DNA of 64,000 nucleotides from contig NZ_CP045434.1 in NCBI RefSeq assembly GCF_009363895.1, forward strand, positions 2,932,501 through 2,996,500, in the 5' to 3' direction. Below, piece after piece: positions 47,820 through 51,241 of this stretch (the first letter of the stretch is position 1; each line of letters starts with the position of its first letter). The notes under the pieces were generated by a model that was not told the DNA's origin, ran no database searches, and saw nothing but the letters and a program-made list of their open reading frames with translations. The position numbers were made by a program, and so were the translations under genes. The stretch is from Sphingomonas ginsengisoli An et al. 2013. GTDB lineage: Bacteria; Pseudomonadota; Alphaproteobacteria; Sphingomonadales; Sphingomonadaceae.

Positions 47820-48935
47820 ATGAACTGGTTTGGTCGTAAGTCGGCGCCTGCGCCGGCCGCGCTTCCGACGTGGTCGACGCTTGCCGGCACGAATGACGAT
47901 GTCGGTCCCCGGAGCTATCAGGCCCGGATCAACGAAGTGTTCCTGAGCAATCCGGTCGGCCAGCGCTCGGTGCGGCTGGTCGCGGGGACGGTCGCGGCGT
48001 TGCCGATCGACCAGATCGAGGGGGATGAACAGGCCGCCAAGGTCGGGCTTCGGCCGCGCCTGCTGGAAACGGTGGCGACGCAGCTGCTGCTGCACGGCAA
48101 TGCCTACCTCTATTGCGTGGCGACCGAGCGCGGGCTGAGCGAGCTGGTCCCGCTTCGGCCCGAAAAAGTGTCGGTGACGCTCGACGAGCGCGGGTGGCCG
48201 TCTGGCTATGTCTACCGCAGCGGTCCCAATCGCACCGCGCGTTATGCCGCGCGCGACGCGCTGGCGCGGCCGCAGGTCCTGCATCTGCGGGCGCTCAACC
48301 CGACTGATGATCATGTCGGGCTGGGTTGCATGGACGCGGCGATCAGCGCCGCATGCCTTCACAATCGGGCGACCCGCTGGAATCGCTCGCTGCTCGACAA
48401 TGCCGCGCGGCCGTCGGGCGCGATGGTCTACGATCCCGGCGACGGCTCGAGCCTGACCGGCGAGCAGCTGACCCGGCTGCGCGAGCAGATCGACCAGCAT
48501 TTCGCCGGTGGGATCAACGCCGGGCGACCCTTGTTGCTGGAGGGCGGCTTAAAGTGGCAGGCCCTCGGACTGTCGCCCAACGACATGGACTTCGTGTCGC
48601 TCAAGGAAGCGGCGGTCCGCGACATCGCCCTGGCGTTCGGGGTGCCGCCAGTCCTGCTCGGCCTGCCTGGCGACACGGCTTACGCCAATCTGCGCGAGGC
48701 CGGACGGGCACTTTACCGGCAGACCGTGCTCCCCTTGTCGGAGCGCATTCTCGAGACGCTCACCGAAGGGCTGAGCGCCTGGTTTGGGCCGGTCGGCTTC
48801 GCGATCGACCTCGACCGGGTCAGCGAACTGACCGAGGACCGCGAGAGGCTATGGCAGCGAATTGAGGCGGCGAGTTTCCTGTCACGGGCGGAGAAGCGGG
48901 AACAATTGGGCTTCAGCGCGGAGCCCGTGGCATGA
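47820..48935 (+). CDS. Phage/GTA portal protein (HK97 family)
   Basis: 371 residues. It matches the HK97-type portal (RcGTA g3): LSNPVGQRSVRLVAGTVAALP, LLHGNAYLYCV, SELVPLRPEKVSV, VLHLRALNPTDDHVGLGCMDAA, GAMVYDPGD, and LSPNDMDFVSLKEAAVRDIALAFGVPPVLLGLPGDTAYANLREAGRALYRQTVLPL, the stem helix and its flanks. The portal is the dodecameric DNA entry channel of the head. It is open and full length. The terminase gene that normally precedes it is absent; rpsF lies upstream in the opposite direction. It overlaps the DUF6127 gene by 4 bp. Confidence 0.93.
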   Translation: MNWFGRKSAPAPAALPTWSTLAGTNDDVGPRSYQARINEVFLSNPVGQRSVRLVAGTVAALPIDQIEGDEQAAKVGLRPRLLETVATQLLLHGNAYLYCVATERGLSELVPLRPEKVSVTLDERGWPSGYVYRSGPNRTARYAARDALARPQVLHLRALNPTDDHVGLGCMDAAISAACLHNRATRWNRSLLDNAARPSGAMVYDPGDGSSLTGEQLTRLREQIDQHFAGGINAGRPLLLEGGLKWQALGLSPNDMDFVSLKEAAVRDIALAFGVPPVLLGLPGDTAYANLREAGRALYRQTVLPLSERILETLTEGLSAWFGPVGFAIDLDRVSELTEDRERLWQRIEAASFLSRAEKREQLGFSAEPVA

Positions 48936-49264
48936 GCCCCGTCGGCGCGACGGGTGATATTCTCCTTGGCCAATTGCTGGCGCAGACCGAAGGCCGGTCG
49001 CTCGACATCGTGACCATCAGGGCGCTGGTCGAGGAAGCGAGCCAGTCTGGCGCGCAGCGCGCACTCGCCAGCCTCGGGCTCGATGATGCGCAGGCCCGGC
49101 GCGACATGGGTGAGCTGCGCGAGTTGCTGAGCGCCTGGCGGGACGCCAAGCGAAGCGCTTGGCAGGCGATGGTGACGTGGATCGTCCGGGTCTGCCTGGC
49201 CGGCCTGCTGATCAGCATCGCCTTCCGGTTGGGCTTGTCCGAGCTGGTCCATGCCGGTTCGTGA
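48932..49264 (+). CDS. DUF6127 family protein (small GTA head gene)
   Basis: 110 residues. An N-terminal helical part (TGDILLGQLLAQTEGRSLDIVTIRALVEEASQSGAQRALASLGLDDAQARRDMGELRELLSAWR) and one C-terminal membrane helix (TWIVRVCLAGLLISIAF) match DUF6127. That family occupies the place between portal and protease in alphaproteobacterial gene transfer agents. Its exact role is not known. It overlaps portal by 4 bp and the protease gene by 14 bp. Confidence 0.85.
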   Translation: MSPVGATGDILLGQLLAQTEGRSLDIVTIRALVEEASQSGAQRALASLGLDDAQARRDMGELRELLSAWRDAKRSAWQAMVTWIVRVCLAGLLISIAFRLGLSELVHAGS

Positions 49265-49679
49265 TCGCCGCGGCGGTTCGGTGCGCTTTGCCGGCTATGC
49301 CGCGGTGTTCGACGCGCTCGATCAGGGTGGCGACATCGTCAAGGCAGGGGCGTTCAGGCGCACGCTGGCGAGCCTGCCGTCGATCCCCTTGCTGTGGCAG
49401 CATCGGGCGGGCCGCGTGATCGGCACGATCGAGCGGGTCGAAGAAGATCAGCGAGGATTGCGCGTGATCGGGTCGCTCAACGGCAGCGAGAGCGGGACGA
49501 CCGCGGCTCGCCTGATCGGTTCGCGCCAGATCGACGGCCTGAGCTTCGGCTATCGCGTGCGGACATCCGAGCAAGCGGGCGACGCCCGCGTGCTGACCGA
49601 CGTCGACCTGCTCGAGGTGAGTGTGGTCGCGCGACCGATGCAGCTCAAGGCCAGGATCCACGCGGTCCAATCGGGCTGA
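49251..49679 (+). CDS. HK97-family prohead protease
   Basis: 142 residues, typical of the short alphaproteobacterial form. Conserved: FAGYAAVFDALDQGGDIVKAGAFRRTL, the His in IPLLWQHRAGRVIGTI, Ser in IDGLSFGYRV and DLLEVSVVARPM. The His/Ser pair with a nearby acidic residue forms the protease active site that trims the capsid protein during head maturation. The motifs are intact. It is the third gene of the head module, followed after 86 bp by the capsid gene. Confidence 0.92.
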   Translation: MPVRDRRGGSVRFAGYAAVFDALDQGGDIVKAGAFRRTLASLPSIPLLWQHRAGRVIGTIERVEEDQRGLRVIGSLNGSESGTTAARLIGSRQIDGLSFGYRVRTSEQAGDARVLTDVDLLEVSVVARPMQLKARIHAVQSG

Positions 49680-49765
49680 CCGGTCGGTCAGCCAAACCGA
49701 ACAAGTTCAATTCATGACCACGGTTCACCGCGTCGGTGAGCCGCCTGTCTTTGTGGGAGCCCGAC

Positions 49766-50827
49766 ATGGAAGTGAAGGCCGATGCGCTCGAACAGTCGTT
49801 CGACGACGTGAATTTCGAAGAGATTGGAATCTCGCTCAAGGAGGAACTCGAACTGCTCAAGAATCGCCTGGCCGACAGCCAGAACGCCGCCCTTCGCCCC
49901 GCCCTCGACGGGGTGAAGTCCGCCGAGAATTCGGCATTTGTCGAGCGCTTCCTGCGGCGCGGGATCGATAGCGATCTGGAAGCCAAGTCGGCCGACAATT
50001 CGTCGGGCGGCGCAGGCGGTTACGCCATTCCCCGCGATATCGACGAACAGATCGACCGCACGCTGGTGACGCTGTCGCCGATCCGCGCCATCGCCAACGT
50101 CGTCAAGGTCGGCAGCTCCAACTATCGCAAGCTGATCACCACCGGCGGCGCGCCGTCTGGCTGGGTCGGATTCGAGGCGGCGCGACCCGAGACGGGAACG
50201 CCGACCTTCACCGAAGTGGTCCCGGCGAGCGGCGATCTCTACGCCAATCCGGCCGCGTCGCAGCACATGCTCGACGATGCCATGTTCGATGTCGAAGCTT
50301 GGCTGGCGAACGAGATCGCGGTTGAATTCGCTCGGGGGGAGGGCGCGGCGTTCATCAAGGGCACCGGCGTCAACCAGCCGCTCGGCTTCCTGTCGTCGCC
50401 GACCGCAACGACCGCCGACGGGGCCCGCCCGATGGGCACGCTGCAGACGATCGGGACGGGGGTCGCCGGTGGCTTCCCGGCAAGCTCGCCAGCCGACAAA
50501 CTGATCGACCTCGTTCAGAGCTTGCGTCAGCCGTATCGCCAGGGCGCGGTGTTCGTGATGAACAGTGCGACCGCGGCGACGATCCGCAAGTTCAAGACCG
50601 CGGACGGCGCGTTTATCTGGCAGCCCGGCATGGTCGCCGGCCAGCCCTCGAGCCTGCTGGGTTACCCGGTGATCGAAGCCGAAGACATGCCCGACGTGTC
50701 GGCCAACAGCCTGTCGGTCGCGTTCGGCAACTTCAAGGCGGGCTACATCATCGCCGAGCGCAGCGAGACGAGCATCCTGCGCGATCCCTACACCAAGAAG
50801 CCCTATGTTTATTTCTACGCGACCTAG
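49766..50827 (+). CDS. Major capsid protein (HK97 fold), apparently C-terminally truncated
   Basis: 353 residues. An N-terminal coiled-coil delta domain (about 1-75, with LKEELELLKNRLADSQNAAL) is followed by the HK97 fold: GGAGGYAIPRDIDEQIDRTL, LITTGGAPSGWVGFEAARPETGTPTFTEV, QHMLDDAMFDVEAWLANEIAVEFARGEGAAFIKGTGVNQPLGF, AVFVMNSATAATIRKF, SLLGYPVIEAEDMPDV and AERSETSILRDPYTKKPYVYFYAT. GTA capsids I know of continue past this point with about 20 more residues (a K-R-V-G-G-type end). Here a TAG follows YFYAT at once, and DUF2793 sequence begins in the same frame. The loss of the last strand may prevent normal assembly. Confidence 0.9.
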   Translation: MEVKADALEQSFDDVNFEEIGISLKEELELLKNRLADSQNAALRPALDGVKSAENSAFVERFLRRGIDSDLEAKSADNSSGGAGGYAIPRDIDEQIDRTLVTLSPIRAIANVVKVGSSNYRKLITTGGAPSGWVGFEAARPETGTPTFTEVVPASGDLYANPAASQHMLDDAMFDVEAWLANEIAVEFARGEGAAFIKGTGVNQPLGFLSSPTATTADGARPMGTLQTIGTGVAGGFPASSPADKLIDLVQSLRQPYRQGAVFVMNSATAATIRKFKTADGAFIWQPGMVAGQPSSLLGYPVIEAEDMPDVSANSLSVAFGNFKAGYIIAERSETSILRDPYTKKPYVYFYAT

Positions 50828-51241
50828 GCGCTCGAAAACAACATCCAGCCGGTGGTAGCGGGCGCGCCTGTCGATAGCCCGCCGCCGTCCCCAAGCGTTG
50901 GCGACCAATATCTTGTGGGCGACACACCGGAGGACGCCTTTGCCGAACACGCGCAGAATCTCGCCACTTGGACTGAGGCTGGCTGGCTGTTCACGCCACC
51001 GCGCGAGATGATGTCGGTGGTGGACGGTCGCAGCGGCCAGGCCTGGTTCTACCGTGGAGGCGAATGGCTTTTGGGGATGATCGAGGCAGCGGAAGGCCGC
51101 GTCGATGGTCAGAAGGTGCTCGGGTCTCGGCAGTCCGCAATTCCGGTGCCGACGGGCGGCACTGTTGTCGATCAGGAGAGCCGAGCCGCACTGGCCGCGA
51201 TGCTTTCCGCGCTTCGGCAGCATGGCTTAATTGCCACGTGA
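50828..51241 (+). pseudogene. DUF2793 gene fragment fused behind the capsid stop
   Basis: The reading frame continues directly from the capsid TAG with ALENNIQPVVAGAPVDSPPPSPSVGDQYLVGDTPEDAFAEHA and runs to GTVVDQESRAALAAMLSALRQHGLIAT. This matches the middle and end of DUF2793 proteins, whose N-terminal block (with QKEVTHNEAL) is missing. A GTG at 50852 could start a 129-residue product, but no ribosome-binding site is evident. In sphingomonad GTA loci as I know them, DUF2793 is the last gene, after the tail genes. The fusion therefore suggests a deletion that removed everything between capsid and DUF2793. Confidence 0.75.

Follow-up and report, generated by a model that had tools for sequence, protein, structure and literature searches.

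How does a gene transfer agent (GTA) come to keep its head genes and lose its tail, with the capsid gene running straight into a tail-fibre domain? The question is raised by a 64,000-nucleotide stretch (the window; G000:C1:2932501-2996500) of a 3.04-Mb genome assembled as one contig (completeness 100), in which genes for portal, DUF6127, prohead protease and HK97 capsid lie in GTA order at positions 47820-50827, every frame open. By alignment with relatives the capsid lacks their last 19 residues: it ends ...KKPYVYFYAT, where they continue KRVGGQVVNSEAIKLLKFA or close variants, and after a TAG the same frame runs on as a DUF2793 domain, 137 codons until its natural end. We consider it probable that a GTA of the type of Rhodobacter capsulatus (RcGTA) lost its connector and tail genes through a single deletion of about 12 kb. 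This would have run from codon 353 of the capsid gene as far as the codon that follows the HNEAL motif in a DUF2793 tail-fibre gene, joining both in frame, with the stop codon arising later at the joint. Left at the locus would be genes for portal, DUF6127, protease and a capsid that ends at FYAT, without tail genes and with terminase elsewhere, and substitution counts suggest that its head genes are relaxing. The same fusion would recur among sphingomonads as a way of disabling GTA particles, in-frame joints of exact register presumably being the ones that survive. The window itself most likely holds a fused GTA now in decay.

The probable deletion and what remains of the GTA

An earlier note on this DNA had described a complete portal, DUF6127 and protease with a near-complete capsid, rpsF upstream in the opposite direction, no terminase beside them, and a capsid TAG followed in frame by DUF2793. 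Pfam and TIGR matches, the alignment of the capsid C-terminus and the open reading frames (ORFs) bear this out (Table 1). The open DUF2793 frame is by itself modest evidence (41/2000 composition shuffles were also without an in-frame stop), and it is homology that carries the case. G087, the closest relative compared, shares the flanks of this locus and carries a full tail; identities between it and the window are 96.5% for rpsF, 83% for portal, 89% for capsid and 86% for the downstream outer-membrane protein (OMP). Between its capsid and DUF2793 lie a fibre-like gene, tube, TIM-barrel protein, hub and genes in the g14 and g15 places, as identified by similarity to G009 tail genes. In G087, 12,008 bp separate the end of the FYAT codon (L134, oriented 5033) from the codon aligned with the window TAG (17042). 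Since G087 is intact between the same flanks, about 12 kb were probably deleted in the window, and one deletion between capsid and DUF2793, as the earlier note had suggested, accounts for the missing connectors and tail. Orthologous loci with a full head-tail cluster and the same flanks are found in G064 and G009 as well. The window TAG is aligned to a Gln codon in G087, and at the place of the window's FYAT-stop-ALENNIQPVVAGAP protein P0023 has FYATQALENRVHPVVEGAP, so the stop most likely postdates an in-frame fusion.

The absence of a tail holds at the locus and, for three tail families, across the genome: PF09931 (baseplate hub), PF23845 (TIM-barrel sheath) and PF06199 (tube) have 0 matches in G000, other tail genes not having been searched genome-wide, and match 26, 23 and 29 genomes in the set of 61. 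The sole PF04860 match in G000 is the window portal. The supposed absence of a terminase, by contrast, is true of the locus and not of the genome. An ORF of 441 aa without a stop, for a GTA-type large terminase (PF03237 and PF17289), lies at G000:C1:938726-940051 (PF03237 match at G000:C1:939284-939883), beside a gene which we take to be recA. It is related to the terminase adjoining the portal in G005 and agrees with 14 other terminases at 85/85 of the columns invariant in them, the broken G029 copy excluded. At the rpsF-alr locus of six relatives (G009, G011, G017, G032, G064 and G087) stands a full tail but no terminase, which lies elsewhere in their genomes; in G002, G003, G005, G013 and G022 it adjoins the portal. 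Separation of the terminase, being common to intact relatives, is not part of the tail loss, and we rejected terminase loss as part of the damage. For the same reason it does not follow, as had been proposed, that a shell without DNA packaging is being kept.

Three further observations concern terminases. A 118-aa ORF without a Pfam match precedes the lone terminase (L112:7727-9405, equal to G000:C1:938726-940404), far from the head genes. Two copies of the terminase with large open frames (L113, L114) occur in G009, both apart from its head-tail cluster. Examples of genomes with a terminase match and no portal match are G004, G021, G026, G028 and G034, the last three being fragmented assemblies.

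Recurrence and independent origins of the joint

The capsid-DUF2793 joint is not unique to the window, a recurrence that the earlier note had not seen. Capsid searches gave matches in 29 of 71 genomes from the genus and in 267 of 396 from the order, and ends were compared among the matches listed, of which those of G029, G069, G084 and G411 end near the same residue as the window capsid. G029, G069 and G411, the last belonging to a different genus code (g23), carry in-frame DUF2793 fusions with the joint between FYAT and xxLD, the second part starting from the codon after HNEAL. G010 holds two capsid pieces with the same end as in the window; it shares the left breakpoint with G084, and both then run out of frame into a g15-like gene. 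Moreover, a protein search with the G069 fusion returned 26 proteins with both PF05065 and PF10983 among the best 120. Three fusion-query searches, each taken as the best 120 of 6,327 to 7,254 matches, gave 275 distinct proteins. Fused proteins made up 28/275, which is not a frequency because the set was chosen by similarity to the fusions, and every joint fell between FYA[T/L] and xx[L/T][D/E]. A full capsid end was kept by 244/275 (242 by pattern; P0147 and P0250 by eye). In P0043 the FYAT codon is joined to the downstream OMP gene; P0054 is the window's own protein as it stands in the database; P0045 ends earlier, without the motif. Hephaestia mangrovi (L149) is fused at the same joint as the window. 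With the Hephaestia fusion as query, G542 (g26) was found among the matches listed for 397 family genomes (356 with a match); its fusion lies at a different point, between KRV and AGQAQKE inside a shared GGGCAG, and is an ordinary joint.

Two other arrangements were encountered. P0003 holds prohead protease, capsid and DUF2793 in a single chain, and in G007 (L044) the protease is joined in frame to the DUF2793 end beside a portal with a stop, making this another tail-less GTA remnant.

A capsid tree was built from 209 rows (28 fused, 181 not), leaving out 18 duplicate rows, P0054, the too short P0041 and P0065, and P0176 and P0183, which were obtained later; row L152 (= G084), despite a capsid that ends at FYAT, was scored as not fused. 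Parsimony gives 24 changes on this tree. There are 24 fused-only groups, the branch to their non-fused neighbours having a Shimodaira-Hasegawa-like approximate likelihood ratio (SH-aLRT) of at least 80 in 18 and lower in 6. A single clade of all 28 fused rows was rejected by the approximately unbiased (AU) test (p 2e-54; 67 rows, 23 changes). At the nucleotide level, fused G069 aligns with intact G011 up to the FYAT codon (87.5%) and resumes 10.1 kb on, right after HNEAL (78.8% beyond the joint). Fused and intact members of a clade have the same kind of residue directly after the joint: in the window and G005 clades it is mostly Q, in the G011 clade mostly hydrophobic. Taken together, the clade-typical residues, the G069-G011 match and the tree test imply that the same deletion was made many times, and common ancestry of all fusions was rejected on the AU test and the G069-G011 comparison. 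As shown on the capsid tree, the same fusion at the same two codons arose independently about two dozen times among sphingomonad capsids.

The upkeep and loss of GTAs is an open question, for which a joint repeated at two codons in about two dozen lineages amounts to a replicated experiment of nature. With it one could test if heads of tail-less GTAs are useful in themselves or if a precise deletion process acts at these loci. Excerpts of PMC9836097 give GTA genes as conserved to varying degrees in about half of Sphingomonadales, and according to excerpts of PMC10883770 incomplete GTA regions were discarded there. Capsid-based surveys may count fused, tail-less loci as GTAs.

Decay, function and the precision of the joint

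Outgroup-polarised nonsynonymous (N) and synonymous (S) changes were counted in portal, DUF6127, protease and capsid; these are simple counts, with S partly saturated and the time of deletion on each branch not known. The window head genes show 94N/123S against 74N/215S in G087 (p 4e-5), whilst the controls rplI, rpsF, alr and nth give 70/98 against 78/151 (p 0.14). The N excess of the window lies in DUF6127 (21/9), protease (16/15) and portal (39/58), not in the capsid (18/41). For the terminase of the same genome the counts are 77/57 against 50/60, and two other outgroups give similar figures. On these counts the window locus appears to be relaxing and the other fusions to be either young or functional.

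Several results weigh against decay as the general meaning of the fusion. In fused G029 the head genes are more constrained than in intact G032 (73/128 vs 147/144, p 0.002), and they are not relaxed in fused G069 relative to G011 (14/115 vs 24/117, p 0.16) or in fused Hephaestia with G416 as outgroup (103/113 vs 110/102, p 0.44). Fused G411 gives 79/104 against 120/110 in G416 (p 0.07), and 114/114 vs 130/141 with another outgroup. At the 85 columns that intact capsids conserve, the window capsid has 0 deviations, and so have 23/29 other fused rows, which would be odd for dead genes unless all were very young. Finally, tests of microhomology and of a conserved site found no mechanism for the exact joint. 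With L174 as outgroup the Hephaestia counts become 219/164 vs 40/64 (p 0.0008), a comparison of a long branch with a short one because L174 is a near relative of the reference. G020, tail-less yet unfused, is also not relaxed (124/161 vs 131/147). The earlier note had left a choice between a recent event and a function that is kept; the window is relaxed relative to G087, yet the fusion elsewhere is mostly unrelaxed, so that either may apply.

An adaptive fusion, yielding a head with fibre-bearing capsid or a poison of related phage heads, with selection picking the exact joint and the window copy later gaining its stop, is a possibility that we take seriously although we think it improbable. 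The unrelaxed head genes of G029, G069 and G411 are in its favour, as is the reading frame. DUF2793 joints found without a fusion query (window, G029, G069, G411, the protease-DUF2793 joint of G007 and the second joint of G084, in g15) are in frame in 6/6 cases (chance 0.0014), or in 5/5 (chance 0.004) when the window, picked partly for its frame, is excluded, which suggests a filter acting on the protein or on translation. The joints of G542 and Hephaestia are in frame too, but were found via fusion queries. Moreover, conserved sites are kept about equally, with deviations at the 85 conserved columns of 0.44% in fused and 0.37% in intact capsids, and in four fused sister pairs the differences fall on 69 variable columns and on 0 conserved ones, the chance of which under uniform change (3e-9) is meaningful only where the sister pairs share the fusion by descent. 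The terminase ORF is open in G000, G069, G411 and G542; in G029, however, it is broken. Also at odds with adaptation, the lost capsid C-terminus is rich in residues invariant in 47 intact capsids, so that its loss should matter, and the FYAT breakpoint is also joined to partners of little sense in a fusion: in G010 and G084 to g15, out of frame, and in P0043 to the OMP gene. Database fusions, too, were found as open reading frames and are biased to intact ones. We are more doubtful still of a fuller version, in which sphingomonads repeatedly make a tail-less head whose capsid bears a fibre domain, keeping terminase, portal and protease, as a fibre-coated DNA-packaging shell or a blocker of related phage heads selected through the same protein joint. 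In two structure predictions the capsid was modelled poorly (mean predicted local distance difference test scores of 50.2 and 46.8), and only the DUF2793 part of the first was usable; capsid rows of the fold comparison rest on a low-confidence stretch.

Site-specific or otherwise programmed excision of the tail segment between fixed sites seems unlikely. It would fit the fact that many lineages have identical breakpoints and that the left one has three different partners on the right. Against it, conservation of third codon positions at the left site (0.655) is not above that in nine upstream windows (0.53-0.76), so that this test, on 100 sites, saw no conserved DNA site at the left breakpoint, and such a site is an unlikely cause of the exact joint. 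In addition, the TIM-barrel tail gene was not found in G000, G029, G069, G411 or G542. The two sites at the joint share exact identity of 0-2 nt in 68 intact loci, fused or broken loci having been excluded by name from this and the third-position test. Microhomology as the driver was rejected on that figure as well, for it does not account for the precision; the joint register is high in local similarity, with a median of 3% of offsets better. It is very improbable that a fused allele of single origin spread between species and had its flanks swapped later by recombination: the identical joint would agree with this, but clade-typical residues begin at the first codon past the joint, G069 matches intact G011 on both sides, and the AU test speaks against one fused clade. 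An assembly collapse in G000 can practically be dismissed, given a complete single contig, three tail families without a match and recurrence of the joint in G069, G029 and G411, whose assemblies have one to three contigs.

Known systems and layout of the locus

The locus shares with RcGTA (capsid Rcc01687, 6tb9) the order of portal, g3.5-place gene, HK97 protease and capsid. P0012, a close intact homologue of the window capsid, matches the RcGTA capsid (6tb9/6tba) to its end (3e-85). Unlike RcGTA, the window locus is without connectors and tail, its terminase is distant, and its capsid has lost the C-terminus and is joined to a fibre gene. DUF2793 relates to a chain of the baseplate-tail complex of phage R4C (8gtc; PDB name 'Ribonuclease III'), and on this likeness, with excerpts of PMC10276861, it is probably a tail-fibre domain; unlike in the roseophage fibre, it follows the capsid here and not the baseplate. 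Among the titles and abstracts listed in literature searches none describes a capsid-DUF2793 fusion, and Viswanathan et al. 2017 (Sphingomonadales prophage; cited in PMC6821227) may describe one.

Capsid-forming phage-inducible chromosomal islands (PICIs) carry head genes without a tail, besides integrase and replication genes, and make use of phage tails. The head protein of one of them, EcCI2 (9gyi), is homologous to P0012 (5.7e-49); unlike EcCI2, the window locus would be a GTA remnant at a fixed host locus. HK97-fold encapsulins form a shell without portal and protease and with a cargo peptide, whereas in the window the portal and protease ORFs are present and open.

Table 1. Features of the tail-less GTA locus and its flanks (positions in the window)
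Feature	Position	Strand	Basis and remarks
rpsF	47081..47509	-	Upstream flank; ORF, longer GTG start also listed
GTA portal (g3), 371 aa, complete	47820..48935	+	PF04860 Phage_portal 2.2e-63, TIGR01537
DUF6127 (g3.5 position), 110 aa, complete	48932..49264	+	PF19622 1.2e-29
Prohead protease (g4), 142 aa, complete	49251..49679	+	PF04586 Peptidase_S78 4e-28, TIGR01543
Major capsid protein (g5), 353 aa	49766..50824	+	PF05065 Phage_capsid 2.3e-75
TAG at probable deletion junction	50825..50827	+	Sense codon here in related fused proteins
DUF2793 putative tail-fibre domain	50828..51241	+	PF10983 6.5e-16; in capsid frame, open to natural end
Outer-membrane protein	51344..52201	+	PF13505; downstream flank, same place in several relatives
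alr	52293..53321	+	ORF; downstream flank

The capsid ORF opens at 49736, and the start in Table 1 was chosen by alignment with relatives. In many loci of the genus a fibre-like gene of at most 800 aa (L032 oriented 7088-9490), with a conserved start, a variable remainder and no Pfam match, lies between capsid and connectors. Homologues of both rpsF and alr are in the same place in G009, G011, G017, G020, G029, G032, G064, G069 and G087.

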